From contig NZ_JAKRVX010000004.1 in assembly GCF_023638035.1 (NCBI RefSeq), positions 124,001-188,000 of the forward strand: DNA of 64,000 nt. The letters run 5' to 3'. The notes below the pieces were generated by a model, which saw only the letters and a list, made by a program, of their open reading frames with translations, made no database searches and was not told the origin of the DNA. Of this stretch, positions 6,000 to 54,437 are shown in pieces. Source of the DNA: Natronocalculus amylovorans. GTDB taxonomy: Archaea; Halobacteriota; Halobacteria; Halobacteriales; Haloferacaceae. A program made the position numbers and the translations under genes. Position 1 is the stretch's first letter. Every line of letters starts with the position of its first letter.

Positions 6000-6033
6000 T
6001 CTGATATCTGATATTGAATCAAGGATCGATCGG
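5977..6033 (+). repeat. direct repeat copy R1, overlapping the virB4 stop
   Basis: First of four same-direction copies of a sequence around GATCGCC(A/G)ATCTCGACTA followed by TCTGATATTGAAGCGAGG and a CGATCG. This copy contains the virB4 stop and a local duplication of CTGATAT. Other copies are at 8964-9010, 10932-10985 and 11101-11152. Confidence 0.75.
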
Positions 6034-6035
6034 CT

Positions 6036-6090
6036 TGACATCCTCCCACGACTCAAGTCATGGGCTTTCTCCTTGATTTTGTGTAAACGA
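6036..6090 (-). repeat. solo IS200/IS605-type right-end hairpin (copy A)
   Basis: GACATCC, then an imperfect stem CCCACGACT-caa-GTCATGGG at 6045-6064, then CTTTCTCCTTGA. Haloarchaeal IS200/IS605 and IS1341-type elements end in this hairpin, which overlaps the 3' part of the TnpB guide RNA. Read in tnpB direction the copy lies on the minus strand. There is no tnpB reading frame next to it, so it is a scar or non-autonomous end. Confidence 0.6.
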
Positions 6091-6229
6091 CGGGATTCTC
6101 TCCTCGAAAAAAGAGAGCAGAGGATTTCGACAGAGCCACTTAAGAGTACTTTCACTCCGGTTGGCATATCCTTTTGACTACAGAGGAGGAACATACGCGT
6201 GTACGACTACTGAACCTATGGTGGACTTC

Positions 6230-6391
6230 ATGCTTTCATACATTTCACTGCTGATCAACAAGCTACCGTCACGATCGGAGAGTACCCAGTACGTAGAGTG
6301 CCGGCACTGTGGTTCGTCAGTCGTCGATCAACTGACTAGCTGTTCTCAGTGCGGGTCAACTGAGTTCTCAAAATACCGTTTCGAAGGGTGA
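6230..6391 (+). CDS. small zinc-ribbon protein
   Basis: A 53-residue protein when started at the ATG at 6230; an ATG four codons upstream (6218) is equally possible. Two CxxC knuckles, CRHCGSS and CSQCGST, spaced about 13 residues apart, form a rubredoxin-type zinc ribbon. The N-terminus is a short hydrophobic stretch (LSYISLLINKL). It overlaps the next gene by GTGA, so the two are translated together. Small zinc ribbons are abundant in haloarchaea; no specific role can be read from the sequence. Confidence 0.6.
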   Translation: MLSYISLLINKLPSRSESTQYVECRHCGSSVVDQLTSCSQCGSTEFSKYRFEG

Positions 6392-6627
6392 GACAGATGT
6401 GGGAATCAAAACGATCGTTTCCAGCGTGGATTGAGAATGCGTATGATGCAGTTGAAAAGCGATCGAGTGAGAGGGAGTATTCACTCCCTCGTGAAGAAGC
6501 AGTGCTCGTCATCCAAGCAGCAGGTGATGATCTCACGGAATATGAAGCAACTCATGCGCTCGAACAGTTGTTGAGCCGTGGGTGGATATACGAGGTTGAT
6601 GGTGAGATCAGAATTACTGAACGCTGA
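6388..6627 (+). CDS. small winged-helix-like protein
   Basis: A 79-residue protein starting with GTG in the previous stop, or at ATG 6397. Helical and charged, with the pattern of a compact winged helix: ...LPREEAVLVIQAAGD, then EYEATHALEQLLSRGWIYEVDG. The ending 'LLSRGWIYEVDGEIRIT' is the wing-like beta hairpin common to small archaeal regulators. Co-translated with the zinc-ribbon gene. A DNA- or RNA-binding role is inferred and unproven. Confidence 0.6.
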   Translation: MRQMWESKRSFPAWIENAYDAVEKRSSEREYSLPREEAVLVIQAAGDDLTEYEATHALEQLLSRGWIYEVDGEIRITER

Positions 6628-6669
6628 GTCGGAGGGACGCTATTAGTCAGTCCTCTACAGAGATACAGC

Positions 6670-7150
6670 GAGAGTGCCTCGGGGCTTGACCCCGAGGGTG
6701 AATCGCGTAAGCTTTGTTGCTAGTTCCACCATATTAACGAGTACAGTTGCGACGTGGATTAAAGACCTTAATCCGAAGCAACTGCGCGCAGTTGCGAGGA
6801 ATGCGATACCTCTCAAAACCCGCGCTCTTGGCGTGGTGAGACGGGTGTTGTCGGGTCGTGGTGGAGCGGCCGGCCCTCACGGACACAACGGGTGTTCGGG
6901 TGTTAATTCCAACCGACCCATTTCGGGGAGGTCGAGGGGAATTAAATTCGCCTGCGTCCATCCGTCCGTTTCTGGACAGCATGGACAAAACGGTGAAGCC
7001 TCGAGGCTTGTCCCCGAAGTACTTCACTGGTGTGTTCGGAAGCTGGACGGTGAGATAGACTTCGAGTACGATCGCGGAAATGTGGTTACAGTGGTGCTTC
7101 CCGCACTCCAAACTGACAAAGCAAAAACGCAACTTCTCGAAAACGATTAG
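6670..7150 (+). mobile_element. decayed non-autonomous IS200/IS605-derived (PATE-like) sequence
   Basis: No intact gene fits here. At 6677-6697 there is a perfect 8-bp inverted repeat, CCTCGGGG-cttga-CCCCGAGG, and a degenerate version near 6999-7018 (CCTCGAGGCTTGTCCCCGAAG). The same CCCCGAGGC core appears in the tnpB C-terminal remnant at 12811-12909. The stretch is GC-richer than its surroundings. Palindrome-associated transposable elements (PATEs) derived from IS200/IS605 ends are known in Haloquadratum; this assignment is inference from the palindromes. Confidence 0.35.
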
Positions 7151-7358
7151 CCGGATTCGAGTATTCGATCGTGCTCGTCGGAGGGGATTCTGGGGACCGT
7201 CATCCCCAATATAAAATCCACTCGTGTCGTCAACTATTCCAACGGTAATACTTCTTAGCGACCAATTTTTGAAATGTCTCACTGTCAGCAGTATCTTCAA
7301 TTCAGTCACGGAGTCTGTCAATCTCGGTGAAAATATCAAAATCGTATCCACGCTATGG

Positions 7359-7733
7359 TTAGTCCCACAGTGCCTCGATACGCTTTCTAACGTATTCAAC
7401 AACGATTTGACAGACATCTCGATGATCGTTCGGCCACTGGGCGTCTTCTGCATCGATCCGACTGGCGGTTGGTGACGGATGAAAGTGCCCTCGTGAGTTG
7501 TGTGTGTTCGGATGCCGATCCCACCGACATTTCCACACACCATCCTGATGCACCTCCTGGTAGTGGAAATTGAAGTCTTCGTTTTGGTACCAGCGGATCT
7601 CAAAGCGAGCAGATACGCCTACTGAATAGTATTCAGGAGCCAGTTCAACTCGAAGGTGCAGTTTTCTTTCCTCAACGATCGCAGCAGCGTCGACCATTCG
7701 ACTCCCTGCGAACCGCGAGCGCATGTGCTCCAA
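7359..7733 (-). CDS. orphan TumE-like protein, possibly 5'-truncated
   Basis: A 124-residue protein clearly homologous to the one at 34495-34935. Shared pattern: F(E/Q)..RW(F/Y), (D/Y)FNFHYQE, W.CRWDRHP, then SRGHFHPSPTA and a C-terminal helix ending in R.EAL. The His/aromatic/RWD pattern resembles TumE-type (DUF6516-like) toxins; I hold that link at moderate confidence. Unlike the copy at 34.5 kb there is no HTH partner gene upstream. The reading frame stays open upstream of the ATG through 'DRPVLEHM' into an inverted-repeat element at 7775-7816, suggesting the upstream part and its partner were lost by that insertion. Confidence 0.65.
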   Translation of the reverse strand: MEHMRSRFAGSRMVDAAAIVEERKLHLRVELAPEYYSVGVSARFEIRWYQNEDFNFHYQEVHQDGVWKCRWDRHPNTHNSRGHFHPSPTASRIDAEDAQWPNDHRDVCQIVVEYVRKRIEALWD

Positions 7734-7774
7734 TACTGGCCGATCGATTTGTGGGCTAAAGTAGAATAATTGAG

Positions 7775-7816
7775 CTAACCAACAACAGTATGTTGTGACC
7801 GCTGTTTGTTGGTTAG
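7775..7816. repeat. 42-bp inverted-repeat element, copy 1
   Basis: Arms CTAACCAACA and TGTTGGTTAG bracket a centre containing TATGTTGTGACC. A second copy with the same arms and length is at 8866-8907; both are preceded by AGAAT(A/G)ATTGAG. The two copies frame the vapBC pair and a hairpin scar. Function unknown: terminal remnant of a small element, or a hairpin regulatory site. Confidence 0.8.
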
Positions 7817-7834
7817 TAATGTGCCTAATTCCGT

Positions 7835-8287
7835 TCAGGCAGGTTCTGTCCGGAACCGTTTGAGAACGAAGTGTTTTGGGCTGTCCGCTTCGATATCGTC
7901 GTAGTCGTCGTCAGCGCCGACGAGAAGAGCGGTCTCTGTCTTGTGAGTGTTTTCTGCGGTTGCAAGTGCGTAACTATCACCAAGTGCAGGATTGTAGTTG
8001 AGTATCCATTCTGCAGCATCGTCCCAGTGTTGGCCTGCTGGTATGGTCTGTATACCCATCTCTGAGAGCCATGAAATATATTCGTCCGCATCCTGACGGC
8101 TGTACTTCCGAGCGAGGGTGTATTTGACTTCCGTGAGATTGACTGTCGAAATGTGGCCGTTAATTTCGCCTTCGTACACGGCATCGAGCCAGTCAGTAAC
8201 GATATCTGCGCCTGTTTCACCATCTGCGTGCGCAACTAACGGTTCAGTGTCGAATACAACACTTTCCACGGTATCTGGACCTATCAT
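7835..8287 (-). CDS. vapC: PIN-domain toxin VapC
   Basis: A 150-residue PIN-domain ribonuclease. The acidic active-site residues are visible: VVFDTEPLVAHADGE near the N-terminus (first Asp), NLTEVKY (Glu) around residue 52, and ALGDSYALATAE (Asp) around residue 102, with ADDDYDD close to the end. PIN toxins cleave RNA, often tRNA or rRNA, to arrest growth. The start overlaps the antitoxin stop by ATGA, the standard vapBC coupling. Flanked on both sides by copies of a 42-bp inverted-repeat element. Confidence 0.9.
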   Translation of the reverse strand: MIGPDTVESVVFDTEPLVAHADGETGADIVTDWLDAVYEGEINGHISTVNLTEVKYTLARKYSRQDADEYISWLSEMGIQTIPAGQHWDDAAEWILNYNPALGDSYALATAENTHKTETALLVGADDDYDDIEADSPKHFVLKRFRTEPA

Positions 8288-8577
8288 TCGTCTGTATCGA
8301 AGTGCTGGCTGCGTTCGTTTCGGTCCTTGTCTCGATGTTCGTGCAAGAGTTTGGATGCGGGTTTATCCGTGCTGGCCTCGCGGTTTGCGAGGAGTCCTTG
8401 CATGTCTTTGGGTTCAGGGACTCGTTCAACGACAACTTCGTCTTCTTTATTCCGAAATCGAACTCGTCCAGGTGCGTCAATTCCGAGCTTTTCGCGGAAT
8501 CGTTTCGGAATCGTTGCCTGTCCATGCTTGGAGACGCTAACAATTTCTGATTCATTATTATTTTCTGTTTTACTCAT
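8284..8577 (-). CDS. vapB: AbrB/SpoVT-type antitoxin VapB
   Basis: A 97-residue protein with a swapped-hairpin AbrB DNA-binding domain at residues 10-52 (IVSVSKHGQATIPKRFREKL followed by GIDAPGRVRF). The remaining 45 residues are charged and probably disordered, the part that normally wraps and neutralises VapC. AbrB-type antitoxins usually repress their own operon together with the toxin. The upstream flank 8578-8640 is AT-rich with TATGAA/TTCATA elements (TTCATAGTATGAA at about 8580), a plausible autoregulatory operator. Confidence 0.9.
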   Translation of the reverse strand: MSKTENNNESEIVSVSKHGQATIPKRFREKLGIDAPGRVRFRNKEDEVVVERVPEPKDMQGLLANREASTDKPASKLLHEHRDKDRNERSQHFDTDE

Positions 8578-8663
8578 AGTTCATAGTATGAATTTGTTCA
8601 TAGTTATGTGTTTTGTCTGATCTTAGCCACGGTATGACTATTGTTGCACTTACACGAAGTCGA

Positions 8664-8738
8664 AGAGAAAGCCCACGACTTGAGCCGTGCAGAGGATGTC
8701 AAATATCCAGAATGGTTGGCGCAGAGGATGTCAAATCC
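8664..8738 (+). repeat. degenerate IS200/IS605 right-end hairpin with tandem GCAGAGGATGTCAAAT (copy B)
   Basis: GAAAGCCCACGACTTGAGCC-GTGC followed by AGAGGATGTC, then a second GCAGAGGATGTCAAAT 32 bp further on. Same family as the other right-end hairpins in this window, here in the plus direction and partly decayed. No tnpB frame is attached. Confidence 0.5.
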
Positions 8739-8865
8739 GAAATACCACGTTCCTTCGGTGTTCTAGATTAGCGATCGCTGCGAGGAAGGATGTCAATTCA
8801 CGAGCGATTACGATGATTGCGTCACTGATCACAATCGGTTTGTGATCCAGAACAGAATGATTGAG

Positions 8866-8907
8866 CTAACCAACAAGAGCATGTTGTGACCACAGTCTGT
8901 TGGTTAG
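8866..8907. repeat. 42-bp inverted-repeat element, copy 2
   Basis: Same arms (CTAACCAACA / TGTTGGTTAG), same length and the same direction as the copy at 7775-7816; the centre differs at several bases (GAGCATGTTGTGACC). Mismatches in the spacer with perfect arms suggest the stem is what is preserved. Confidence 0.8.
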
Positions 8908-8963
8908 TGGATTCGTTGCGCGTGATTGTGGAGAAATTCAGATCTCCGAAATTTTCTGGTATG

Positions 8964-9010
8964 ATGATCGCCAATCTCGACTACTCTGATACTGAAGCGA
9001 GGTACGATCG
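8964..9010 (+). repeat. direct repeat copy R2
   Basis: ATCGCCAATCTCGACTACTC followed by TGATACTGAAGCGAGG and TACGATCG. Read in frame it would encode IANLDYSDTEARYDR, so the repeat may derive from a protein C-terminus such as that of a VirB4 relative. Confidence 0.75.
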
Positions 9011-9068
9011 ATTGTATGGTGTTTGACTAATTCTACTTATGTTGGCTCGGACCGATTATTTGAATCTC

Positions 9069-9381
9069 ATGAGGTGGAGCGTTTCATCGAACAATGAAGG
9101 GCTGCCCAAGACGATCGGCTGGTGGCTTTTTGCGATCGCTCTGCTTCTCGTCCTCGTTGTGGCGTTACAAACCTACATTGGGTGGATTGTGTTTGGAGTC
9201 TTCCTATATTATGTCGTCCGTCCAGTTGCCAGACGTCTTCAACATCACGGCGTTGGTCATGTTCGCGTATCTCTTGGGACCTGCCATTTTTGGGTGGTAT
9301 GGTATATTTCTCGGCCCGCTCATCATGGTAGTCACCATTCAGTTTTTGCGAGTTCAGCTACCGAAAATTCACCCCCACTGA
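9069..9381 (+). pseudogene. AI-2E/PerM-family permease, internally deleted
   Basis: The first 55 codons from ATG 9069 read as the N-terminus of an AI-2E family permease (GWWLFAIALLLVLVVALQTY, then FLYYVVRPVARRLQ). The frame then shifts, and from about 9220 a different frame reads the family's C-terminus (FNITALVMFAYLLGPAIFG, GPLIMVVTIQF). The middle, several hundred residues in intact members, is missing. This is a fusion of gene ends by internal deletion, not a functional transporter. Confidence 0.75.
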
Positions 9382-9459
9382 GATGAGTGGTCATGTTCCC
9401 GTACGAGAATGTGGCGATTTCTGTGACAAGCACCAATAGTCGAACGTGAGGTATCATGC

Positions 9460-10206
9460 TCACGGAACGTTGGACAGTTGTTCTTCAAGTTCTGCCGTCG
9501 TAGCCCACGAAAAGCACTGATTTAGCGATTCAAGATGGAGAAGAGAATCAGTTATGACACCGCTATACGACGGTCTGCGTCTGTTCAACTCGGCGTCCAA
9601 GTGTGAGTCAAGGTCCGATTTCGATATGTCTAGCTCATGGGTGCCAGCGTGTTCAGCAAGCGTAGTAAGTCTCTCATCAAGATTATCTGCGTGATATGCG
9701 AGTTCGATCGCCCGAGCAAAGATCGCGTCTTCAGTTGTGAGTACGGATTTGTCCTCGTAGTGTTCTTCTAGCGATCGAGGGAAAAGATATGTACGGCAAA
9801 GCAGTGTTGGCCGTTCAATGCGCCCAAACTCTGCGACTGCACCACCAGTATTGTGTTCTAAGATGAGTGGGATGGCATCTGCGTATAGGGCGTGTAGAAA
9901 GAATTTCACTTTGAGAGCCGGGATATCATCTGATACGTGCAGATCGGGTTGTGTGGCGAGGAGATACGCATAGGCATCGTGCCGGTAATTCAACACATCG
10001 AGTGCTTCATCAAGCCGGTATTTGAACGGTGGTTCGTAACTACCCAACACGAAGTATGTCGAATGGGGGCCAAACAAGTGTTCGTGGCGTTCTCGCATGT
10101 ACGATAGCAAGCGTTCACTGTCCACTGGGTCGAGTTCTAGACCGTAGAGAACATCATCTAAAATAAAGTCCGTGAGTTCGTCCGTGTTTTCTGGTATCTT
10201 CCCCAT
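9460..10206 (-). CDS. conserved haloarchaeal-type hypothetical protein, paired with a divergent regulator
   Basis: A 248-residue soluble, mostly helical, acidic protein. I see no catalytic motif, signal peptide or membrane segment. The first 80 residues are rich in aromatic residues (FGPHSTYFVLGSYEPPFKYR). It is divergent from the HTH gene at 10307, and their shared 100-bp promoter contains inverted-repeat sites, so the regulator probably controls both genes. This pairing suggests a small accessory system, but the function is unknown to me. Confidence 0.8.
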   Translation of the reverse strand: MGKIPENTDELTDFILDDVLYGLELDPVDSERLLSYMRERHEHLFGPHSTYFVLGSYEPPFKYRLDEALDVLNYRHDAYAYLLATQPDLHVSDDIPALKVKFFLHALYADAIPLILEHNTGGAVAEFGRIERPTLLCRTYLFPRSLEEHYEDKSVLTTEDAIFARAIELAYHADNLDERLTTLAEHAGTHELDISKSDLDSHLDAELNRRRPSYSGVITDSLLHLESLNQCFSWATTAELEEQLSNVP

Positions 10207-10306
10207 ATCAACCAGTAAGGAAATATAGTAATATAACCATACTGGTCTAACGTTAATACGTCAACCCCATATATTTATACTGGCTGCTACTGTACGTTTA
10301 GATACT
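10207..10306. promoter_or_regulatory. divergent promoter with ACCAGTA/TACTGGT operators
   Basis: Between the two start codons lie ACCAGTA (about 10209), ATACTGGT (about 10238) and TATACTGGC (about 10278), i.e. one inverted and one additional half-site. AT-rich boxes (AATATAGTAATATAA; CATATATTTATAC) suit TATA elements for each direction. Likely the binding sites of the regulator encoded at 10307. Confidence 0.55.
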
Positions 10307-10780
10307 ATGGCCGATATATCCGCACAGGTGGCCACTGAGAGTGAGAAAAACCCGTTAGAACGGCAGCGAGAGCTGATGCAACTGCTCTCCCAGGAAACAC
10401 GTCATAGCATTATTCAGGCACTCCTCGGCCATCCAGAAGTCCTTGCGTCGGCGGCGGAGATCAACCACTTCGTTCCGAGTAAAGCAAAAAAGACAGTCGA
10501 AGAACAACTGGATGTTCTTGTTGCCGCGGATATTTTGGCGATTTATAACCATACGCTAAACAAACAAAAGCGTGGTTTACCGTGGAAATTCTACGGGTTC
10601 ACCACGCATGGTACTGATATTCTTGAAGACTTTAATTACCTCAAGGCAGTCCCCATGGCCCGAGCAGTACACCAAAAAACGCGGAAGCCTGAGAAGATTA
10701 TACGGCATGAGACGGCTCCGCGACCGCCGCTCCCAGATCCAGTTCGTGTGACGTTCAGACTTAACAACGAAAGTGGATAA
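10307..10780 (+). CDS. ArsR-like winged-helix transcriptional regulator
   Basis: A 157-residue protein with a winged helix at about residues 20-105: RELMQLLSQETRHSIIQALL, a recognition-helix region (SKAKKTVEEQLDVLVAADIL) and a wing leading to WKFYGFTTHG. The C-terminus is a basic, proline-rich tail. The layout fits ArsR-type haloarchaeal repressors without visible metal-binding Cys residues. It probably acts on the shared divergent promoter. Confidence 0.75.
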   Translation: MADISAQVATESEKNPLERQRELMQLLSQETRHSIIQALLGHPEVLASAAEINHFVPSKAKKTVEEQLDVLVAADILAIYNHTLNKQKRGLPWKFYGFTTHGTDILEDFNYLKAVPMARAVHQKTRKPEKIIRHETAPRPPLPDPVRVTFRLNNESG

Positions 10781-10794
10781 GATCAAAATGTGCA

Positions 10795-10920
10795 TTAGTC
10801 CAACTCGGCTGGTTCGGTTTCTGTCGTCGTTTCGAAGAACAGCACAATCTGCTCGTTCGGCTTGAGATTATCAATCAAGAGGCCGAACTCATCCTTGCCG
10901 AGGAACGATCGAACTCTGAG
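10795..10920 (-). pseudogene. C-terminal gene fragment, family unknown
   Basis: The minus strand ends in an open frame with protein-like character (FLGKDEFGLLIDNLKPNEQ, then VLFFETTTETEPAELD and stop) but no start codon before it runs into repeat copy R3. Probably the tail of a lost gene. I cannot name the family. Confidence 0.3.
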
Positions 10921-10931
10921 TTTTGGGGCTC

Positions 10932-10985
10932 TTGATGCCGATCGCTCTTCTCGACTACTCTGGTATTGAAGCGAGCAGCGATCGA
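10932..10985 (+). repeat. direct repeat copy R3
   Basis: CTTGATGCCGATCGCTCTTC followed by TCGACTACTCTGGTATTGAA and GCGAGCAGCGATCG: the most diverged of the four copies, sharing the CTTGATGC lead with copy R4. Confidence 0.65.
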
Positions 10986-11100
10986 TCGTCGGTCATAGAG
11001 AGGAACTTCCCACACACTCTGACCCGGGACACCAGTTGTCACCACAGAGCTCTGACATACGGATCGTGACGCATCTTTTCTGCAGCGACTGACGATCGAC

Positions 11101-11152
11101 TTGATGCAATCGCCAATCTCGACTACTCTGATATCGAAGCGAGGTACGATCG
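11101..11152 (+). repeat. direct repeat copy R4
   Basis: TTGATGCAATCGCCAATCTC followed by GACTACTCTGATATCGAAGC and GAGGTACGATCG. In frame it reads DAIANLDYSDIEARYDRP and continues about 15 codons to a stop, so this copy retains a protein-like C-terminus without a gene. Confidence 0.75.
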
Positions 11153-11221
11153 TCCACTCAGCAGACTTGAACTGAACGCAGACGTGTTTCTCCCCAATTG
11201 ACACAACCAGTGTGAATTCTC

Positions 11222-11297
11222 CCGTCAGGAACCCACGACTGAAGTCGTGGGCTTTCTCCTTGACTTTCTGTAACGCCGTTTACGGCGAGGAAGGATG
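11222..11297 (-). repeat. IS200/IS605 right-end hairpin with second stem (copy D)
   Basis: A perfect stem CCCACGACT-ga-AGTCGTGGG at 11232-11251, then GCTTTCTCCTTGAC, then a second stem GCCGTttACGGC and GAGGAAGGATGTC. It directly abuts the stop of the AAA ATPase gene, so it can serve as that gene's 3' hairpin. Confidence 0.65.
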
Positions 11298-12680
11298 TCA
11301 CTTGCTGAGAATATCTTCCAGTCCAAATAATCGCAAGTCGTCCCGTTCAGCCACTGCTTCTTGAACAGATCGGGTTGCCCCGCTTCGAGTAAACAGCGCA
11401 TACTCTACATTGACGTCTCCGTTAATATCAGGAGTCCATCTAACTTTCTCGGTGTGCTCTTCGAGTGATGCAAGCGCACCGTAGTCAAGGGGGGCGTTTG
11501 TAAACTTACACTCACCCACAACCATTGTCCCATCTGTAGTGAAACCGACAACATCAACCTCGTGGCTTTTGTACCACCACCGACCAATATCTAAGAATAT
11601 TTTATTTGGGTATAGTCTTGGAAGTGCGTCCTGACAGAGCACTTCAAATTGAGGGCTCACGAAGTCAGCAAGCTCAGGTTCAATAACTGCCTCGTATGCC
11701 TCGTTTTCCAACCGTTCGTATCGATCTTCATTTCCGTATACAAATCGAAACCAAAACCGGAACAGTGGATCAAGAATTCGATAGCGGCCACGGCGAGATC
11801 GAGCTTTCTCTTCCGTGAGTGGGACCTCACGTTCGATTAGTCGAAGCCGTTCTAATTTCTGGGTGTAGGTCGAAATCTGCTTTCCATCAATCCCGACCAT
11901 CTGTGCAATCTCATTTGATGTGGTATTCCCTGCAGCGATCGCCTTGAGAATCGCAAAGTACCGATTTGGCTCCGTTAATTCGGTTCGGAGGACATACTCG
12001 GGTTCGTTATGAAGATAGCCTCGCTGTGAGAGAAGCGATTCAGAGATCACAGTTTTGAGGTCGTGATCAAGATCGATACCATCGAGATAGTATGGGATAC
12101 CACCAAAGACGCCCCACGAAAATATCCGGTCTTCGGGCGTGTAGCTTTCCGGGAAAAACTCTTGGGCTGCTCTGAAACCGAGTTGGCGGAGATCGATTTT
12201 TTCGGTAAACCGTCCATAGAGTGGACTGTTTCCTAATAGCGTTGCCTCCTCCATCATACTGATTGATGACCCAACGAGAACGAGTGTTCCACTCGTGTTC
12301 TGGAGGTGCTGGTCCCACAACCGCTGGATCACCGAAGGGATACTCTTGTCTGCGTCGATGAGATACGGGAACTCATCGAGTACGACAATTCCTCCCTGTT
12401 CGATGAGGTACCCAAGTAGAGACTCCCAACTTTGTTTGACGTGTTCAATTTCATGGAATGCATTGGAGGCGATATCAACAAATTCGTCAAGTTGCACCTG
12501 TGGTGTTGTCTGTGTCGCCTGATATATGATGGCACCATCTCTTCCCTCGAGTGAGTGTTGAACGAGCTGGGTCTTTCCGAGACGACGACGTCCAAAAATG
12601 ACAATCAGCTCTGGGTTGTCAGAACTGTAGCATTCTCGTAGTCGAGATAGTTCGACTTCCCGATCGACAAAGCGTTCCAT
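11298..12680 (-). CDS. archaeal AAA ATPase (ATPase_2/DUF234 type)
   Basis: A 460-residue protein of the archaea-specific ATPase_2 family. Walker A GRRRLGKT at about residues 31-38, Walker B GIVVLDEFPYLID at about 96-108, a STAND-like middle and a winged helix (ATSNEIAQMVGIDGKQIS) at about 250. The C-terminal DUF234 part carries DVVGF...MVVGECKF, a PD-(D/E)XK nuclease-like core. Such proteins are frequent in mobile or defence-associated regions of archaea; substrate and partner are unknown. Two palindromic sites just upstream suggest a dedicated regulator or autoregulation. Confidence 0.9.
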   Translation of the reverse strand: MERFVDREVELSRLRECYSSDNPELIVIFGRRRLGKTQLVQHSLEGRDGAIIYQATQTTPQVQLDEFVDIASNAFHEIEHVKQSWESLLGYLIEQGGIVVLDEFPYLIDADKSIPSVIQRLWDQHLQNTSGTLVLVGSSISMMEEATLLGNSPLYGRFTEKIDLRQLGFRAAQEFFPESYTPEDRIFSWGVFGGIPYYLDGIDLDHDLKTVISESLLSQRGYLHNEPEYVLRTELTEPNRYFAILKAIAAGNTTSNEIAQMVGIDGKQISTYTQKLERLRLIEREVPLTEEKARSRRGRYRILDPLFRFWFRFVYGNEDRYERLENEAYEAVIEPELADFVSPQFEVLCQDALPRLYPNKIFLDIGRWWYKSHEVDVVGFTTDGTMVVGECKFTNAPLDYGALASLEEHTEKVRWTPDINGDVNVEYALFTRSGATRSVQEAVAERDDLRLFGLEDILSK

Positions 12681-12715
12681 ACGCGCAGATATTCCCCCAA
12701 GGGGTTAATCATACC

Positions 12716-12758
12716 GAATAGCCAAATTTAGAATAGGCTATTTGAAAATAGGCTATTT
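12716..12758 (-). promoter_or_regulatory. palindromic AATAGGCTATT sites upstream of the AAA ATPase
   Basis: Two identical copies of AATAGGCTATTT (12732-12743 and 12747-12758), each an inverted repeat AATAG/CTATT, and a half-site AATAGCC at about 12717. They lie 36-78 bp upstream of the ATG at 12680, the usual archaeal promoter/operator zone. Confidence 0.5.
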
Positions 12759-12810
12759 CAGTTTTGGTACACTGGGGGTGGTCAGGGGAGTGCGACATTC
12801 TCGCGTGAAC

Positions 12811-12909
12811 CACCTCGGGGTCAAGTGGTTCGAGACGCAGAGCGTCTCCTCATCACGGAGGTCAGAGATTTCCGTACGACCCCGAGGCACTCGCCCCGAT
12901 TATCTGTAG
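12811..12909 (+). pseudogene. tnpB C-terminal remnant
   Basis: In frame the sequence reads ETQSVSSSRRSEISVRPRG then TRPDYL and a stop, a tail I associate with haloarchaeal IS1341-type TnpB proteins. It is followed 12 bp later by the family's right-end hairpin. Nothing of the catalytic RuvC part remains, so this is a 3' stub of a TnpB element. Confidence 0.55.
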
Positions 12910-12913
12910 GTTA

Positions 12914-12955
12914 GCGAGAAAACCCACGACTGAGATCGTAGGAGGATGTCACTTG
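12914..12955 (+). repeat. IS200/IS605 right-end hairpin following the tnpB stub (copy E)
   Basis: GAGAAAACCCACGACTGAGA followed by TCGTAGGAGGATGTCAC: stem CCCACGA/TCGTAGG, the plus-strand form of the end repeat, in its natural place downstream of a tnpB stop. Confidence 0.6.
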
Positions 12956-13152
12956 TGACACTGATCTTCGGGTTCTGTGATCTCAGTACGAGATCTTGTG
13001 CAATCCGATCAACAGTCACGAAATCGTGTGAGTTTGGTTAATTGAGAGGATAAGAGGCGTCCAGAGACGCTTATGTACACCGTCGCAAAAGCACGCTTGC
13101 TGATCGACACCGGGCACACACGTTCGTCACATTCAGCGTGTACATTCAGAAA

Positions 13153-16100
13153 ATGTCATCCAGAAACACAGAAACAAAACCGGGCACAGAGACATATCGA
13201 TCGTTACGAATTCGGCCAACACATGATCCACTGGATCCATCAACCGTCGAAAGTCACTTTCGGCGACTCCATCGACTCAAGCGATCGACAGAGCCGGAAT
13301 CGAAATGGAAACAACTCTTTTCACGTGAACAGCCGATAACGATCGAATGGCTACTTGTTACAAGCGGGCAGACAGATGCACCACTCGAATATCACATCAG
13401 CATTGACTCACCAGACGAATCGGATATCCAAGCACTCACACATTTGTGCCGAGGATTATTCCCAAACACCTACGAGATTGAACAGATTGATCGAGATCCG
13501 CTGGAAACACTTACAACACCCAGCCCAGAACACGACGACTCAATAGATGAGATACCCGACGTTGTTGGAATAGAGTTCTACGGCGTTGCAGAGCGCCGTG
13601 AAGACTGGCAAACACGACTAACGCCATTCAGCACGTTTGAAGAAGAAACACAGACACGACTCCCACTCACCGCGATCGTTGAAACACTCTCGACAAGCAC
13701 ACTTCCAATGGCCTACCAAGTGCTGCTACACCCCTACCGAGATTGGCGAGCAGACGCCCTCGATCGGCGGTATCGACTCGAACACGGGCGCGAGACCATG
13801 GCCGATCGGTTTGTTGATGATTGGTTTGGCCCAACAACGACAGAACAGCAACCAAACCGATCGGAAACACTGCACGAACAAGCACACCACAGAGACCCCG
13901 CAATACGACAGCGCCTGACGGACCTTGAACACAAAGACGCACAACGATCGTTCATACTTAATGCGCGTGCGATCGCGATCGCCGTTGCAACATCCCCAGA
14001 CAAAACGAACAGTGAGACGGCAACTGGAGAAAACAAAAATCACAACCGAGAGCAACCCGATGCACTTGGGACAATACGAGAGCTACAAACTGCCCTTGAA
14101 TCAGTGAGCGGACTCCACTACCAAATTAGAGGGGTTGAAAAAACAGGCGACGATGCACAAAACCTCTTAGAGACAATACAATCGCGGAGTGTGTGTGAAC
14201 CAACCTACGATCGGATTGCGACACGCCTGCCGTGGACAGAAAATACAAGCCAAGGGATTATTGCCGATCCAACAGAAGCGCCCGCATTCTGTCTCATCGA
14301 TGCAACCGCACTGACTGCAGAAGGAACACGAGGACTCTCGACGACACCCAAAGAACGGACCGCTCTCGCTCAACCACCAACAGCACAGCTCACACACTAC
14401 CGCGAAAATGGACTCACGATCGGCCACCCGGTGACACAAGATGGAACACCAGAAGAAACACCGATCGCACTTCCACCAAGCCTCCAATCGCTCCACGTTG
14501 CGTGGTTTGGAAAAACGGGATCAGGAAAAAGTACGTCACTGATAAACGGTATTTTGGACAACCACGACGCAACCGATGGGGCTGATATTCTCATTGATCC
14601 AAAAGGAGACGGCATGTCTGAAAGCTACCTACTATCGCACTATGCTCGCTTTGGGACACTCGATAACGTCTACTACTTTGACTGTGCACAGACACTGCCC
14701 GCACTCTCGTTCTTCGACATACGACAACAACTCGAAGACGGGATCGATCGCACCAGCGCAGTTGAAGACGTCGTCGAACACTACATAGAGATTCTCACCG
14801 GTATAATGGGTAGAGAACGATTCGAACGGGCAGTTCGATCGCCAGATATCATCCGATACCTTCTCAAAACGCAATTCGATCCCGTGCATGGAAAAGATGT
14901 GTTTAGCCACCGCGACCTCCAAGCACTCACAGCCCAATTTCAAAAAGCACAAGAACCACCGACAGTCTCCGACAAAGAACTGCAACTCATGCTTGACGGT
15001 GTTGCAGCAAACAGCAAGCGATCATTTACCGAGCTGCTCCAAGGCGTCGCCAACAGAATCGAAAAAATACCACTCGATAAGCGCTTGGGAATGATATTCA
15101 ATAATACTCCTACCCCTGGGACAAGCGACCCCTATTTCGATCTCCGATCGATACTCGACAAGGATGCGGTTGTGATAATCGATACTGGAGGACTCCGCCC
15201 AGAAAGCCAACGTGCAATGACGCTTCTTATCCTCTCAACACTATGGAGTGCACTTCGGCGTCGGACACAACAACAGACAGAAAATGCCGAACTACCTCTC
15301 GTCAATCTATACATCGAAGAGGCAGCTCACCTTGGTGGATCAACACTGCTCTCAGAACTACTCTCACAATCACGATCGTTTGGGCTCTCAATAACACTCG
15401 CAATGCAATTTCCAGCGCAGCTCCGACACGCAGACCCACGAGCCTACGCAGAAGTCATCAATAACGTCTCAACAGTCGTTGCAGGAAACGTCTCCGTCGA
15501 CACCGACCTCGCACAACGATTCGCAACCGAAGCGATCGACACAACAGAAGTCAGCAACCGACTGCGAGCACTCCAACGAGGAGAATGGATGGTTCGACTC
15601 CCAGCAAAATTTGGAAATCCAGAGCCTCAACCATTTCTCGTTACAAGTGCAGCACTCCCAACCGGGCACCCAGATGGTCTCACACCACTCACCAGTGCAC
15701 AAGAAACCGGATTCAAAACAGCACTTGACACCGTATACGATCGCACACGACTCAACTACGGGCTCGATCTCTCACGTGCAGACATGCGAACCTCGATCGA
15801 ACAAGATACCCAACAGACTAAACTGACACACACTGATGAAGCAAAAGAACCTCAGCCCACCGAAAAAACCGAAACAACAGAAGACATACGTCTCAACTCA
15901 GCACTCCCATACACAACACATCTCCCAGAACCGATCGACTACGATCCAGAAATACACGCGCTGGTCTGTGAAACCTGTCAAAACCGATACGATCCAACAG
16001 CACAAGGGATGCGGTTTGCACTCATGTGCTGCAATCAACTCTCCAACATCTCCAGAGACGACATCCCAATCTGTGATATATCACTGAAACTCTCACGAAA

Positions 16101-16893
16101 AGAACGCCGCCAAAGCCCATTCACAGATGCCCAACTCAGACTCCTACAAGTAGTCTACACAGCACACCAACGCCACTACGATCCTAAAACCGAATACGAT
16201 CCACTCTACGACAGTATGAAACTCCTCGAGGAATACGTCGGCATCTCACCTGAAGAACGAGACGAGCTCGTCGACACAAAACACCTCACAGTCGACTGTA
16301 CGTACCCACACAAACTCTACACTGTAACATCAAAAGGACGGAAAGCTATCAAAATCGGTCACAGAGAAGGTATCGCATATGGACACACACAAGGCGACCT
16401 CAATGAATCCACCCTTCACATCATTATGGTCGAGCTCGGTCGACGATACATCGAAGAAACATACGTTAACGATCGAGACTCCCCAGTAACTGAAGCACTC
16501 TCATATTACGAAGTCAAAAACGGTGACGCAAAATCAAGACTCGATGCAGTTGGAATCGACAAAAACGAGAACATCATCATCACACTTGAAGCCGAACGAT
16601 CGAACCATGACTCTCGAAGAGCGGTCCCCTCAGACTACGACAAAATGGCAACACATGAGCCAGAAGCAGCAATCTGGGTCGTGAAAAACAGAGATGGAGC
16701 CCATAACGTACTCAGTGCACTCAATGAGCCACTTGAAGGTGACCCACGTGTTGACAAAACATACAGCCCAACATCTCCGCCCTCGATGTTCATGATCGAT
16801 GAACCAGGGTTTACTGACATGCTCACGCTCCAACAACTACAAAAGATGATCCCCCAAACAAAATACTTCGACAATCAAGACCCAAAAGTGTGA
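13153..16893 (+). CDS. VirD4/HerA-like conjugation ATPase with C-terminal zinc and nuclease-like regions
   Basis: Start taken at ATG 13153 (MSSRNTETK); a GTG five codons upstream is possible. About 1246 residues. The N-terminal 440 residues are unassigned; the motor domain has Walker A FGKTGSGKST near residue 453 and Walker B VNLYIEEAAHL near 717-727, with TLAMQFPAQLR typical of coupling proteins. A CETCQ...CC cluster near residue 938 looks like a zinc site. The last 150 residues contain EVKNGDAKSRLDAVG and IIITLEAE, resembling a restriction-like nuclease core. VirD4 proteins couple DNA to the secretion channel, which matches the VirB4 operon 7 kb upstream. It is convergent with the primase gene. 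Confidence 0.85.
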   Translation: MSSRNTETKPGTETYRSLRIRPTHDPLDPSTVESHFRRLHRLKRSTEPESKWKQLFSREQPITIEWLLVTSGQTDAPLEYHISIDSPDESDIQALTHLCRGLFPNTYEIEQIDRDPLETLTTPSPEHDDSIDEIPDVVGIEFYGVAERREDWQTRLTPFSTFEEETQTRLPLTAIVETLSTSTLPMAYQVLLHPYRDWRADALDRRYRLEHGRETMADRFVDDWFGPTTTEQQPNRSETLHEQAHHRDPAIRQRLTDLEHKDAQRSFILNARAIAIAVATSPDKTNSETATGENKNHNREQPDALGTIRELQTALESVSGLHYQIRGVEKTGDDAQNLLETIQSRSVCEPTYDRIATRLPWTENTSQGIIADPTEAPAFCLIDATALTAEGTRGLSTTPKERTALAQPPTAQLTHYRENGLTIGHPVTQDGTPEETPIALPPSLQSLHVAWFGKTGSGKSTSLINGILDNHDATDGADILIDPKGDGMSESYLLSHYARFGTLDNVYYFDCAQTLPALSFFDIRQQLEDGIDRTSAVEDVVEHYIEILTGIMGRERFERAVRSPDIIRYLLKTQFDPVHGKDVFSHRDLQALTAQFQKAQEPPTVSDKELQLMLDGVAANSKRSFTELLQGVANRIEKIPLDKRLGMIFNNTPTPGTSDPYFDLRSILDKDAVVIIDTGGLRPESQRAMTLLILSTLWSALRRRTQQQTENAELPLVNLYIEEAAHLGGSTLLSELLSQSRSFGLSITLAMQFPAQLRHADPRAYAEVINNVSTVVAGNVSVDTDLAQRFATEAIDTTEVSNRLRALQRGEWMVRLPAKFGNPEPQPFLVTSAALPTGHPDGLTPLTSAQETGFKTALDTVYDRTRLNYGLDLSRADMRTSIEQDTQQTKLTHTDEAKEPQPTEKTETTEDIRLNSALPYTTHLPEPIDYDPEIHALVCETCQNRYDPTAQGMRFALMCCNQLSNISRDDIPICDISLKLSRKERRQSPFTDAQLRLLQVVYTAHQRHYDPKTEYDPLYDSMKLLEEYVGISPEERDELVDTKHLTVDCTYPHKLYTVTSKGRKAIKIGHREGIAYGHTQGDLNESTLHIIMVELGRRYIEETYVNDRDSPVTEALSYYEVKNGDAKSRLDAVGIDKNENIIITLEAERSNHDSRRAVPSDYDKMATHEPEAAIWVVKNRDGAHNVLSALNEPLEGDPRVDKTYSPTSPPSMFMIDEPGFTDMLTLQQLQKMIPQTKYFDNQDPKV

Positions 16894-16945
16894 CTCACAA
16901 TGCGATCGTGTTAAAAAAACACACCTCACATACGATCGGCTCCAC

Positions 16946-18250
16946 TCAGCGAGGCAGCCACCGAAGATACCACTTCCTCGAAGGACGCTCCGAGCGCGCC
17001 TCTAACTCAGCCTCAACCTCCAGACGCCGATCGCGTTCAATAGAAAGCTCCTCTTGAAGTGACGCATTCTCCTCAACAAGCGACTGAATCCGATCGGTGA
17101 GCTCATTGATCCGATTCAAATAGACGGATACACCCTCTCGCGTTTCTCCTACATCACCATCCGAATCTGCAAAATTGCCATCAGACGTCGATTCATTACC
17201 ACTAGATGACCCAGAGTCACCCCAATCCGATCGAATAGACGACCGTGCTGGTGTATAAAATTCACTCGTCATACCAATAGCACGCTCGATCGTCTTCTCT
17301 CCGTACGTACTTCCATCGGAGAAATGGCTCACATCCCACTTCTCACGAAACAGATCTGAATGACGAAACAGACGATCCATCTGTACACGATCCCCATTGC
17401 TCCAAAAAGCAAGTATCATACATAACGCCATATCTGCTTCCGAATGGCTATCATACCCCTGGATATCACCACGCCACAACCGATCGAACTTATCCCCATT
17501 TGCCGCACCCTGGGCACGAGATACTAACTCTGCATCGTCAAGGCTGCTCTCCGATCCAGAACCCAGTCCACGATCGCTTGTTTGTGATCTTGAATCCACG
17601 TCACGATCGGTTCCCTCACCCAACTGTAATCCACGATCACCTACTGCATTACCCTCCGTCTTAGTTTTGTTTCCACCTGTCTTCTCCTGAACTGGATTAA
17701 TGTACCTCGCATGGACCGATGCAAGCGCAGCACTTCGCTCTTGCAACTGTTGTGGCCGTCTACGAACCCGGTCTCCAGTAACTGTGAAAAATCGAGCATT
17801 CTCATATAGTTCAATCCCACCTCTACGATTCCCACCCGATGGGAGTTCGCCAGTCACCAGAACATGATATCCCGTTTTTGAAGGACTAATTTCAGTATAC
17901 GAATCGAGTTGCTCTATAATCTCTTGTGCCCAGTTCTCCGTCACACCAGTATCTGGATCACGACACTTGTCAAGATCAACACCCACGATCGGATCCTTAT
18001 CACTGAACACAAACCCGATTCCTGTTGCGTTCCCATCCGAAACATACGACAACGCCGTATCTAGTGAACACCACGTCGACCGATCGGTCGTTGAAGCATA
18101 GCTTCCACTCGACGGATTTATCGGTACTTTCGTCTGTTTACTATCTCTATCTCTTGTCTGTTCGTCCCAACACACCCACTGCTCACGATCGATGAGTTCC
18201 TGTGGAATGTTTTCCCGAAGTGGCAACGGTGTGGTCATGATATTCAGCAT
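16946..18250 (-). CDS. NrS-1 polymerase-like primase/replication protein
   Basis: A 434-residue protein (or from ATG 18238). Residues 12-175 match the primase-polymerase-like N-terminus of plasmid/phage replication proteins: REQWVCWDEQ, KVPINPSSGSYAS, GIGFVFSDKDPIVGVDLDKC (metal-binding Asp pair DLD), then the SKTGYHVLV and RFFTVTGDRV motifs. Residues about 245-335 (FDRLWRGDIQGY, EADMALC, TYGEKTIERAI) match the downstream domain of NrS-1-type proteins. The last 60 residues form a coiled coil (RIQSLVEENASLQEEL). No helicase domain is present. This supports an extrachromosomal or integrated replicon origin for the region. Confidence 0.85.
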   Translation of the reverse strand: MLNIMTTPLPLRENIPQELIDREQWVCWDEQTRDRDSKQTKVPINPSSGSYASTTDRSTWCSLDTALSYVSDGNATGIGFVFSDKDPIVGVDLDKCRDPDTGVTENWAQEIIEQLDSYTEISPSKTGYHVLVTGELPSGGNRRGGIELYENARFFTVTGDRVRRRPQQLQERSAALASVHARYINPVQEKTGGNKTKTEGNAVGDRGLQLGEGTDRDVDSRSQTSDRGLGSGSESSLDDAELVSRAQGAANGDKFDRLWRGDIQGYDSHSEADMALCMILAFWSNGDRVQMDRLFRHSDLFREKWDVSHFSDGSTYGEKTIERAIGMTSEFYTPARSSIRSDWGDSGSSSGNESTSDGNFADSDGDVGETREGVSVYLNRINELTDRIQSLVEENASLQEELSIERDRRLEVEAELEARSERPSRKWYLRWLPR

Positions 18251-51314: not shown

Positions 51315-52334
51315 CTACGCTGGTTTTGGAAATGACAGTCCAAATGTTGTTCCAGAATCACTATCACCTTCGACCCACACCTGCCCACCGTAGGTTTTGA
51401 GCAACGCATCCACAAAGAAGAGACTCATTCCGTCACCGTGATTTAGCGGACTTGTTTCACAGCGTCCGAATAGCTCGTCTGGATCGGTCACCGAAATTCC
51501 GGGCCCGTTATCGGATATATACACCACGACAGCAGCCGGTGTCTCCTCGATTGTTACCTCAACAACCGGTGTTTTCGACGTGTTATGGACAATCCCATTT
51601 TCAATGATTTTCTCAAACGCATCTCCGACTGCATGATTTGCAGTTGCCCGATATGGGGCCTCAGTTGTGGGGCCAACCACTGTTGCCTCTGGATACTGTT
51701 GTTGTATTGCAGTGACTGCATCGTGGAGAAATGAGTCAATACGGACTGCCGACGTGACCTCATCATCTCGCGTGAGCAGATACTCGAGTTTTCTGGCCGT
51801 ATGTGCACGATCGACAATCTTGTCAAGCCGACCTTGTACCATCTCAAACTGTGCTTTCTCTTCTTCTGTTGTTACACGATCGGAGAGCAGCTGCACATAT
51901 CCTTGAACCACGTTAATATCATTTCGAATATTGTGCCGCAGCACACGGCTTAATAGGTTGAGCGATCTCGTGTACTGCCGTTGTTTTGTGAGGTCCGTAA
52001 ATACTCCTGCCAAACAAATAACCTCGTTATCTTCAGTAATTGGAACTGCAGATCCAACACCGTATATGACGGTTCCATCTTGCGCCAGGAGTTCAGTTTC
52101 GCCGTGCCATGTTTCGTTGTTAAGCGTTGCTGAAGCCACTTCTTCGAGAACTTCCTCATCAAAAAGAATGTCCGTAACTGGTGTCCCTAACAGCGTTGAT
52201 AGATCGTCATATCGAAGGAATTTCACTGCAGCCTCGTTTGCATCTTCTATGACGAAATTGCAGCCGATGATTAACGCGGGGTTCTGGATTGACCGAAACA
52301 CATCTTCATAAACCTTGGAGGAATAGTCGGCCAT
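51315..52334 (-). CDS. PAS-domain sensor histidine kinase
   Basis: A 339-residue soluble kinase with one PAS domain (residues about 10-120: VFRSIQNPALIIGCNFVIED) and a kinase core with H-box SRVLRHNIRNDINVVQGY (His about 140), N-box FEKIIENGIVHN and G-boxes DNGPGIS and NHGDGMSLFF. The NGDGMSL replaces the usual G-x-GLGL, so ATP-lid function may be altered. No partner receiver nearby. Confidence 0.88.
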   Translation of the reverse strand: MADYSSKVYEDVFRSIQNPALIIGCNFVIEDANEAAVKFLRYDDLSTLLGTPVTDILFDEEVLEEVASATLNNETWHGETELLAQDGTVIYGVGSAVPITEDNEVICLAGVFTDLTKQRQYTRSLNLLSRVLRHNIRNDINVVQGYVQLLSDRVTTEEEKAQFEMVQGRLDKIVDRAHTARKLEYLLTRDDEVTSAVRIDSFLHDAVTAIQQQYPEATVVGPTTEAPYRATANHAVGDAFEKIIENGIVHNTSKTPVVEVTIEETPAAVVVYISDNGPGISVTDPDELFGRCETSPLNHGDGMSLFFVDALLKTYGGQVWVEGDSDSGTTFGLSFPKPA

Positions 52335-52416: not shown

Positions 52417-53388
52417 TCATTTTAATCCGTACGCCTTGACATCAATTTCAAGCAACTCTCTCATTCCGTCGATAAAATCATATGCATCAACGCTTTCTAA
52501 TCCGTGATTGGTCTGTAACAGATCTCGATAGGTTCGGTTCCACTGCATGAGCAGTTCTTGCTCGATTGACGTATCTCGAATCCGATCGATAATTGTCGCT
52601 GTCGACACCGCTGATGATTGAAGTTCCTCAATTGTTACTACTCCGCGATCAATCGCGGTCACAACAACGTTTGACGTGTAGTCATCTTCGGCAAGTTCCC
52701 GCTCCCATGTCGTTACCCAATTACCAATTCTGGCAAGTTTCTGTGCCTCCCATGTAATATCTCTAAATTTGGATAGATCATTGACCGAAAATGACGGCGA
52801 GAACGCAATATCAATCCCAACATAACAGAATAGCAGCATGTTGTATGTATCATACTGCTCGATCGCGGTTGGGCTTGTAATCTCAGGGCCATCGTTGACA
52901 AGGCGATTATAATCCATCGTGTTCAACGACTGACGGATATCAAACTCGAGAAGTTGCCGGAATTCCTCACGGCGTGGTGCTTTGTCTAAGAATTCGATCG
53001 TTTGTGCCCATGTATCTTCAAGCAATGCAAGCTGTGTGCAATCAACTAAATCGCTATCGTACACCGGATCAACGTTTGAAAATGGAATTTTCCGGCCTTG
53101 CTCGAATGTTCCATGGTCACGATGGCGCTCTGAGATATCATCGAGGATCGTCATAAAAACCGAGAACCCGAATTTTGCTTTTCGAGCCGTGTTTCTATAT
53201 TTCGGTGGGACAGTTGACAACTCAAATTTTGGGAACACGTAGTAGAGCCATTTCCAGAGCAACTCATCTCGATCGTCGGTGATCTCTGCATATCTCGACA
53301 ACAGTTGATCAAATTCGGTCGGAACCGACACTGACTGCATATTTTTGACGAGCTTTTGCTCTCCCGCACGGTGGGTTTCTATAGACAT
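52417..53388 (-). CDS. class I terpene-synthase-like protein
   Basis: Start at ATG 53388 (MSIETHRAGE), 323 residues, all-alpha, no membrane segments. DDISE at residues 83-87 fits the DDxx(D/E) metal site, and 140 residues later N223-T227-E231 in IGNWVTTWERELAEDD fits the NSE/DTE site followed by the typical ELA-x-x-D tail. The spacing and length match bacterial class I terpene synthases, which ionise prenyl diphosphates and cyclise them. Alternatives such as a chain-elongating prenyltransferase are less likely because only one Asp-rich motif exists. The gene is AT-rich compared with neighbours, and CGATCG-poor, pointing to acquisition. It is divergent from an SDR gene. Confidence 0.65.
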   Translation of the reverse strand: MSIETHRAGEQKLVKNMQSVSVPTEFDQLLSRYAEITDDRDELLWKWLYYVFPKFELSTVPPKYRNTARKAKFGFSVFMTILDDISERHRDHGTFEQGRKIPFSNVDPVYDSDLVDCTQLALLEDTWAQTIEFLDKAPRREEFRQLLEFDIRQSLNTMDYNRLVNDGPEITSPTAIEQYDTYNMLLFCYVGIDIAFSPSFSVNDLSKFRDITWEAQKLARIGNWVTTWERELAEDDYTSNVVVTAIDRGVVTIEELQSSAVSTATIIDRIRDTSIEQELLMQWNRTYRDLLQTNHGLESVDAYDFIDGMRELLEIDVKAYGLK

Positions 53389-53594
53389 TTCAACTGTCCA
53401 GTGCCGTCCACCTGTATTAAAATTCAGTATTCTATAAATTAAATTTAAATTAAGTACTAACAAATTAAATATATTTCAGAATCGTGTGATAGTATCTCAC
53501 TCTGAATAGGTGTACACATCGTATGAATCCCCCCGATTGCCAGTAAACAGTACACACCCGTACAGTTTTTACGTTCCTTCGAGTGGACAGTAGT

Positions 53595-54437
53595 ATGGAT
53601 ATACCAGATCTCACCGACAAAACAGCATTCATCACTGGCACAACGCGTGGTATTGGAAAATCGATTGCACTTGCGCTTGCCGAAGCCGGGTGCAACATTG
53701 TCTCAACAGGAAAAACAGTCGATGACAGTGAGAGTGACCTCGAAGGGACGATCCACAAAACCGCAGCAGCATGTGCTGAACATGGTGTTGAAACGCTTGC
53801 TATTCAATTGGATGTTCGAGATCCTGCTGCTGTTGAAGCTGCAGTTGAGCATACTGTTGATACATTTGGTGGCATTGATATTGTTATTAACAACGCAAGT
53901 GCGATCCAACTCGCGAACATTGCGGATCTCCCACCGAAACGATTTGATCTCCTCACTGACGTGAACATTCGCGGGACGTTCCTCGTCTCACGCGCGTGTA
54001 TTCCACACCTGCAAGCCAACGAAGACGGTGGCTGGATTCTTACGAACGCCCCGCCAATTACGGTCGATCGCGCTCCAGGGCTTGCCCCATATGCGTGGTC
54101 AAAATTAGGGATGTCGTTCTTGACGCTCTCACTTGCGCACGAACTGAAAAGCGATGGTATTGGTTGTAACACGTTTTGGCCCGAAACTGCGATCGACACC
54201 CGTGCAACACGATACTTCGGATTGGGAACCGAAGACGACTGGCGAACACCGGAAATCGTTTCGGATGCGGTGCTCTCGATCCTTACAAATGATCCAGCGG
54301 AGTACACTGGAAATGCACTGTATGTCGAAGACATACTCCGAGACGCCGGTGTAACCGATTTTTCGGAATATAATGTGACCGCGGGTGACCCCGCGCCGAT
54401 GTCAAAACAGATGTTTGAACTCGAAGGTGGGTTCTAA
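53595..54437 (+). CDS. SDR-family oxidoreductase
   Basis: Start at ATG 53595 (MDIPDLTDKT), 280 residues. NAD(P)-binding TGTTRGIGKS at residues 13-22, NNAS at about 97-100, catalytic Tyr and Lys in YAWSKLG and the Ser upstream in the usual relation. The C-terminal half (NTFWPETAIDT, PAEYTGNALYV) resembles HSDL2-like reductases. It is divergent from the terpene-synthase-like gene, so a role in oxidising a terpenoid product is possible but only suggested by position. Confidence 0.9.
   Translation: MDIPDLTDKTAFITGTTRGIGKSIALALAEAGCNIVSTGKTVDDSESDLEGTIHKTAAACAEHGVETLAIQLDVRDPAAVEAAVEHTVDTFGGIDIVINNASAIQLANIADLPPKRFDLLTDVNIRGTFLVSRACIPHLQANEDGGWILTNAPPITVDRAPGLAPYAWSKLGMSFLTLSLAHELKSDGIGCNTFWPETAIDTRATRYFGLGTEDDWRTPEIVSDAVLSILTNDPAEYTGNALYVEDILRDAGVTDFSEYNVTAGDPAPMSKQMFELEGGF

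Follow-up and report, generated by a model that had tools for sequence, protein, structure and literature searches.

A class I terpene-synthase-like protein family in Halobacteria and its association with neighbouring sensor genes

The closest described systems are the bacterial class I terpene synthases, the catalytic domain of plant terpene synthases and, for the neighbouring genes, the Bat (bacterio-opsin activator) regulators. In bacterial class I synthases the diphosphate-sensor arginine lies about 46 residues before the asparagine of the NSE motif. The founding Bat protein is a regulator of opsin and carotenoid genes in Halobacterium.

A preprint by Samusevich et al. (bioRxiv 10.1101/2024.01.29.577750), titled on terpenoid biosynthesis in archaea, is cited in PMC12797696 and PMC13235557, and PMC13235557 refers to terpene synthases from archaea that were characterised in yeast. 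Because this preprint exists, the first archaeal terpene synthase is not claimed here. The "terpene clusters" of Halomicroarcula (PMC8600319) come from cluster mining, with no established tie to the present synthase. The content of the preprint aside, the literature search found no description of this synthase family and no paper that ties an archaeal terpene synthase to BAT regulators or PAS kinases. The new point is the conserved association of the synthase with sensors.

The synthase gene, its predicted fold and its metal motifs

The window analysed is a 64,000 nt stretch of the Natronocalculus amylovorans genome. The synthase ORF has 323 codons on the minus strand, with the ATG at 53388 and the stop at 52417 (Table 1). 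The original prediction had described this ORF as a class I terpene-synthase-like gene with DDISE at residues 83–87 and with N223, T227 and E231, and both the ORF and the named residues are present as described; LAEDD comes after E231. It had also placed the gene in an AT-rich patch. This is correct for the upstream stretch at positions 53405–53475 and not for the gene, whose GC content is 45.1% vs 50.7% for the window and whose GC3 of 0.47 is ordinary among neighbouring genes (0.42–0.56); thus only the upstream region is unusual. The closest synthase relative, in Salinigranum salinum, also has an A/T-rich upstream region (25% GC, within a locus of 69% GC). With such a stretch at the same place, a regulatory role and a foreign origin are equally likely. 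The divergent region represents the probable promoters of the synthase and of the short-chain dehydrogenase (SDR) gene. Elsewhere in the window, positions 13001–17000 show an AT skew of about 0.3 and a negative GC skew over 4 kb.

Table 1. Features of the synthase locus (window positions)
Feature	Position	Strand	Basis
Class I terpene-synthase-like protein, 323 aa	52417..53388	-	ORF, AlphaFold2 pLDDT 94.3, PDB matches, PF19086 relatives, invariant motifs
First metal motif D83-D84-I-S-E87, end of helix 62–88	53128..53142	-	model and alignment
Second metal motif N223-x3-T227-x3-E231, in helix 202–233	52696..52722	-	model and alignment
R220, invariant, three residues ahead of N223	52729..52731	-	83/83
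R40 of conserved RD(R)xxLWxW motif, 43 residues ahead of D83	53269..53271	-	R40 83/83, W47 83/83
Partner PAS-HisKA-HATPase_c histidine kinase, 339 aa, 82 bp past synthase stop	51315..52334	-	Pfam, adjacency, lineage
Divergent upstream region, synthase/SDR, includes A/T-rich 53405–53475 (18% GC); probable promoters	53389..53582	.	composition, comparison with relatives
Short-chain dehydrogenase (SDR); neighbour, outside the module	53583..54437	+	Pfam, distribution, flanks

The AlphaFold2 model of the protein, made from an alignment of 65 sequences that are nearly all haloarchaeal, is all-helical with a mean pLDDT of 94.3 and a pTM of 0.92. The top Foldseek matches in the PDB are T-muurolol synthase (9hqm, E = 1.5e-4), hydropyrene synthase and 10-epi-cubebol synthase, with TM scores of 0.5–0.6. 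VIA-align gives Z values of 20–21.6 with taxadiene, 5-epi-aristolochene, bornyl diphosphate, epi-isozizaene and other synthases; the alignments with the taxadiene, 5-epi-aristolochene and epi-isozizaene synthases span ~260–288 residues. According to the note supplied with this tool, helical bundles may reach Z values of 13–14 by chance, and the synthase values are well above these. The fold matches have only about 6–15% of their sequence identical to the protein. The model and both structural comparisons thus display the all-alpha terpenoid synthase fold, as had been predicted, with class I terpene synthases as the best matches in the PDB.

A match to the Pfam terpene synthase profile had also been expected, and it is found in relatives but not in the window protein itself. 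The latter scores 15.3 bits with PF19086 (Terpene_syn_C_2), below the curated cut-off of 23.7 bits, and a standard annotation pipeline would therefore miss it. Of 30 relatives, 22 match PF19086 at E <= 1 (best E 6.9e-8), and one methanogen relative reaches 23.8 bits. Six relatives located on plasmids of haloarchaea each bear the annotation "hypothetical protein". NCBIfam has no model for the synthase family, and among PDB sequences single-sequence phmmer gave nothing of use and the synthase-family profile found none. The protein could instead be a relative of the trans-prenyl diphosphate synthases or of squalene/phytoene synthases, as these have the superfamily fold in common and two FPP synthases are present at Foldseek ranks 34 and 43. 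This is very improbable, however, since the Pfam matches of the relatives are to the terpene-synthase families PF19086 and PF03936 and not to prenyl synthase families, and the second motif is NxxxTxxxE, in place of the second DDxxD of trans-prenyl diphosphate synthases or a second DxxxD.

Conservation of this and other motifs was determined from an alignment of 88 rows, i.e., 83 rows outside Methanosarcina and five very divergent Methanosarcina relatives. R40, W47, D83, D84, D150, D193, Q216, R220, N223, W228, R230, E231 and D236 are identical in all 83 rows, T227 is present in 82, and residue 87 is E in 71 and D in 12. The aspartate-rich DDxx(D/E) motif is at the end of helix D and the NSE/DTE motif is on helix H. 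The five Methanosarcina relatives retain D83, D84, N223, T227 and E231, with Met in place of R220 and with Q216 and other conserved residues lost. Two short motifs by themselves are weak evidence, but both are conserved here; the proposed conservation of D83, D84, N223 and E231 has no exception in the 88 rows. R220 resembles the diphosphate-binding arginine at the equivalent place in plant terpene synthases, and the R40-D-R motif ahead of DDxx is reminiscent of the RDR-like motif of the plant enzymes. In the alignment, positions 177–182 are variable apart from Y179 and are without an invariant arginine.

By its fold and motifs the window protein should be an archaeal class I terpene synthase, and its enzymatic step can be proposed on the same grounds. 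Mg2+ would be bound by D83 and D84 of the first motif and by N223, T227 and E231 of the second. A prenyl diphosphate would lose its diphosphate, and the carbocation would give a terpene, either cyclic or linear. The likeliest substrate would be GGPP because haloarchaea make it for their lipids; FPP or a C25 diphosphate may also serve.

Distribution in archaea, gene order and other neighbouring genes

The original prediction had asked for orthologues in other haloarchaea and had considered such enzymes rare in archaea. Relatives are indeed present in 118 of 391 sampled genomes and 38 of 86 genera of the class, and these numbers do not bear out the rarity. A profile search over the phylum also reveals relatives outside the class, including methanogens; these are taken as Methanosarcina, Methanohalobium and Methanocella types. 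Locus L102 is a Methanohalobium MAG, and its synthase is close to that of L142 in the tree. Two peptide patterns derived from the archaeal profile returned archaeal loci alone in a scan of genome contigs.

Some copies of the gene are defective. In L148 the second metal motif is lost, and L148 together with genomes G593, G525 and G557 of the same phylum have truncated or stop-containing synthase copies, which suggests that the family is decaying in this lineage. In L042 (Haladaptatus pallidirubidus) and L108 (a MAG) the synthase frame stops early or enters an Arg-rich frame; these represent frame shifts or pseudogenes. Fusion of the synthase with a sensor was considered for the long open frames in L108, L245 and L246 and rejected, as these frames are Arg-rich and are probably non-coding extensions or the product of a frame shift.

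The gene order of ~11 kb around the synthase (47.5–58.8 kb in the window) is kept with few exceptions in Halalkalirubrum salinum (L033) and SHRA6 (L034). Within this block the flanking genes have identities of 55–92%, with one fast-evolving ORF at 37–41%, and the synthase and kinase have 50–51% and 49–50%, respectively. A transfer of the gene into the genome had been suggested. In view of the gene order shared with two related genera and of the ordinary GC3, a recent transfer is not supported. In the synthase tree the window gene is closer to Salinigranum and Haloglomus than to the syntenic pair (95% SH-aLRT), whereas the kinase tree groups the window kinase with the syntenic pair (97%). This conflict could stem from replacement of the synthase alone or from unequal rates.

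The SDR gene upstream had been proposed to modify the synthase product. SDR relatives are found in 78 of 148 family genomes; among the best 30 loci inspected an SDR gene is beside the synthase only in the window and its two syntenic relatives. By this distribution and the flanks, the SDR was rejected as a tailoring partner. In L058 (Natrinema ejinorense), positions 5000–16000, the synthase relative is amid genes for a P450, a SnoaL-like protein, two FAD oxidases and an alpha/beta hydrolase, and this looks like a true terpenoid gene cluster. A sensorless Natrinema/Haloterrigena clade (L075, L087, L093, L096, L101, L105) has a metallo-beta-lactamase-fold gene conserved upstream, and several of these loci have a cystathionine gamma-synthase-like gene downstream.

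Sensor genes beside the synthase and their proposed role

The gene that follows the synthase in the window encodes a PAS histidine kinase with no predicted membrane segment. The original prediction overlooked this gene, which is the conserved partner. Window neighbours scanned with Pfam show no recognised response regulator or prenyl diphosphate synthase. Adjacency was determined in 81 loci, namely the window and 80 relatives whose flanks extended up to 8 kb, with profiles for BAT domains and for this type of kinase, as an HTH_10 regular expression missed most BAT regulators. BAT regulators are within 1 kb of the synthase in 31 loci, compared with three in the whole 4–8 kb zone on both sides. 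Kinases number 14 within 1 kb and six in the 4–8 kb zone. Together, 44 of the 81 loci have a BAT regulator or kinase within 1 kb, and since the loci are related to one another these counts are not independent events. The background is 34 kinase-like matches in the 3.26 Mb genome of the window and 18–30 BAT matches in each of four genomes; thus no more than a few per cent of adjacency is expected by chance. There is no sensor within ~1.2 kb in 35 of the 88 tree rows, including all 17 of the Natrinema/Natrialba clade.

Pfam scans of representatives, three BAT partners among them, confirm PAS, GAF, BAT, HTH_10 and HalOD1 domains. The orientation differs by subclade: divergent; upstream on the same strand with HalOD1 between; downstream on the same strand; or downstream on the opposite strand. 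In L035, L039, L045, L051, L053, L057, L062, L063, L065, L066, L068, L076, L103 and L109 the BAT regulator is separated from the synthase by a HalOD1-like ORF. All five Methanosarcina-type relatives adjoin a same-strand PAS kinase of another type than the haloarchaeal one (PAS_3 and HisKA_2 in the two scanned). In the Methanohalobium relatives a multi-PAS kinase follows the synthase, and in L098, from an uncultured archaeon, the last 4 bases of a gene for a FIST-domain sensor are shared with the start of the synthase. Methanocella-type relatives are without an adjoining sensor. As the sensors belong to different families, the pairing apparently originated, or was re-established, on more than one occasion.

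The partner kinases belong to a lineage of their own, as do most partner BAT regulators, and both have a history in common with the synthase. In a kinase tree with paralogues from the window's own genome, 11 of 12 synthase-adjacent haloarchaeal kinases, that of the window included, cluster (93% SH-aLRT), and only one of these paralogues is within the cluster. The BAT tree included 27 paralogues from four genomes. Here 25 synthase-linked BATs make up a clade free of other sequences (91%), two are just outside it, and five are in two small clades whose joining is unsupported; L084 has an extra copy, a distant BAT that is not adjacent. Pairwise distances correlate between synthase and BAT with r = 0.93 for 32 pairs (0.82 for 20 representatives) and between synthase and kinase with r = 0.90 for 10 pairs; none of 2000 permutations was as high in either case, and shared species history contributes to both values. 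A link between Salinigranum and Haloglomus, which crosses NCBI families, is present in both the synthase and kinase trees and suggests that the pair can move together. The genome of the window also has a second kinase of the partner lineage (L244:6950-8011, contig C12), located by a dCTP deaminase-like gene and away from any synthase.

From these comparisons the synthase is most probably an active prenyl-diphosphate cyclase, i.e., a class I terpene synthase, in a sensor-linked module. In the window the module would consist of the synthase and the soluble PAS histidine kinase; in many other haloarchaea the partner would be a PAS/GAF/BAT/HTH_10 regulator, frequently accompanied by a HalOD1 protein. 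A non-catalytic role is improbable. The protein would then bind a prenyl diphosphate and act on the kinase by contact, making no terpene, which would be compatible with the tight co-inheritance with kinases and with the kinase neighbour kept in Methanosarcina forms that have lost R220, Q216 and other residues. However, the metal ligands are kept throughout the 83 rows and in the divergent Methanosarcina forms, and they would be needless in a protein that only binds.

For an active cyclase in a sensor-linked module there are two options: the PAS domain may bind the terpene, or the sensor may report another cue and govern terpene production. Under the second option the product would be a volatile, protective or membrane-active terpene, with the sensor only activating the synthase gene upon light, oxygen or redox cues. 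This is quite plausible, if somewhat short of probable. BAT-type regulators are one-component DNA-binding proteins and thus natural local regulators, the known role of the founding Bat protein is of this kind, and the P450 and other genes around the Natrinema ejinorense synthase are consistent with a specialised metabolite. Conversely, a histidine kinase without a DNA-binding partner would be a poor local regulator, and relatives of the tailoring genes tested are missing from most loci.

Under the first option a hydrophobic terpene would be bound by the partner PAS domain and the level of product, from the cell itself or its neighbours, would set the kinase or BAT output. Such a signal module is a tentative and rather doubtful proposal. 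The sensor lineages are dedicated and co-inherited with the synthase, the partner may be a BAT regulator, a member of two or more families of kinases or a FIST protein but remains a sensor, tailoring genes are scarce near sensor-paired synthases, and the partner kinases are without a predicted membrane segment. The PAS domain of the window kinase is 54–56% conserved in comparison with L031, L033 and L034 vs 36–45% for the ATPase domain, which would fit a conserved cytoplasmic ligand; a terpene is compatible with this but not demonstrated. PAS domains sense many cues, however, a BAT regulator beside a gene may simply control that gene, and the window has no recognised response regulator nearby. 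Regulation by an unrelated cue is at least as likely as the terpene being the sensor ligand. The broader idea that archaea use terpenes as signals, with the synthase and its dedicated PAS sensor as a ligand-maker/receptor pair that is inherited together throughout Halobacteria and occurs in methanogens with sensors of other kinds, is unlikely.

To our knowledge, no chemically defined signal has been established for haloarchaeal cell-cell communication. The co-inherited sensor poses a testable question, i.e., whether archaea make or sense a terpene signal, their own included. Several bearers of the gene are cultured, including Haloarcula and Halorubrum species. The family is largely unannotated, though nearly a third of the sampled genomes of the class carry a member, and if the enzyme is active, cyclic terpenes would be common among archaeal products rather than a curiosity.

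Comparison with known terpene synthases and Bat regulators

The archaeal family is similar to bacterial class I synthases (PF19086; T-muurolol, 10-epi-cubebol, hydropyrene and epi-isozizaene synthases) in its fold, in having a single alpha domain of ~320 aa, and in the DDxx(D/E) and NxxxTxxxE motifs with E..GD after the second. It differs in that sequence identity is 7–15%, the window protein is under the PF19086 cut-off, and the alignment shows no invariant arginine ~46 residues before N223, where the bacterial enzymes have their sensor arginine.

With the catalytic domain of plant terpene synthases (5-epi-aristolochene and taxadiene synthases; PF03936) the VIA-align Z values are up to 21.6, although these tie with those of bacterial and fungal enzymes. 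An RDR-like motif ahead of DDxx and an arginine three residues before the NSE motif are presumably features in common with the plant enzymes. Unlike these, the present protein is archaeal, has no N-terminal beta domain and shows identities of about 8–12%.

The partner regulators resemble Bat proteins (PF15915 and PF04967) in having PAS, GAF, BAT and HTH_10 domains in the three scanned. They differ from other Bat regulators in that the synthase partners are mostly a lineage of their own among the many BAT matches of each genome.
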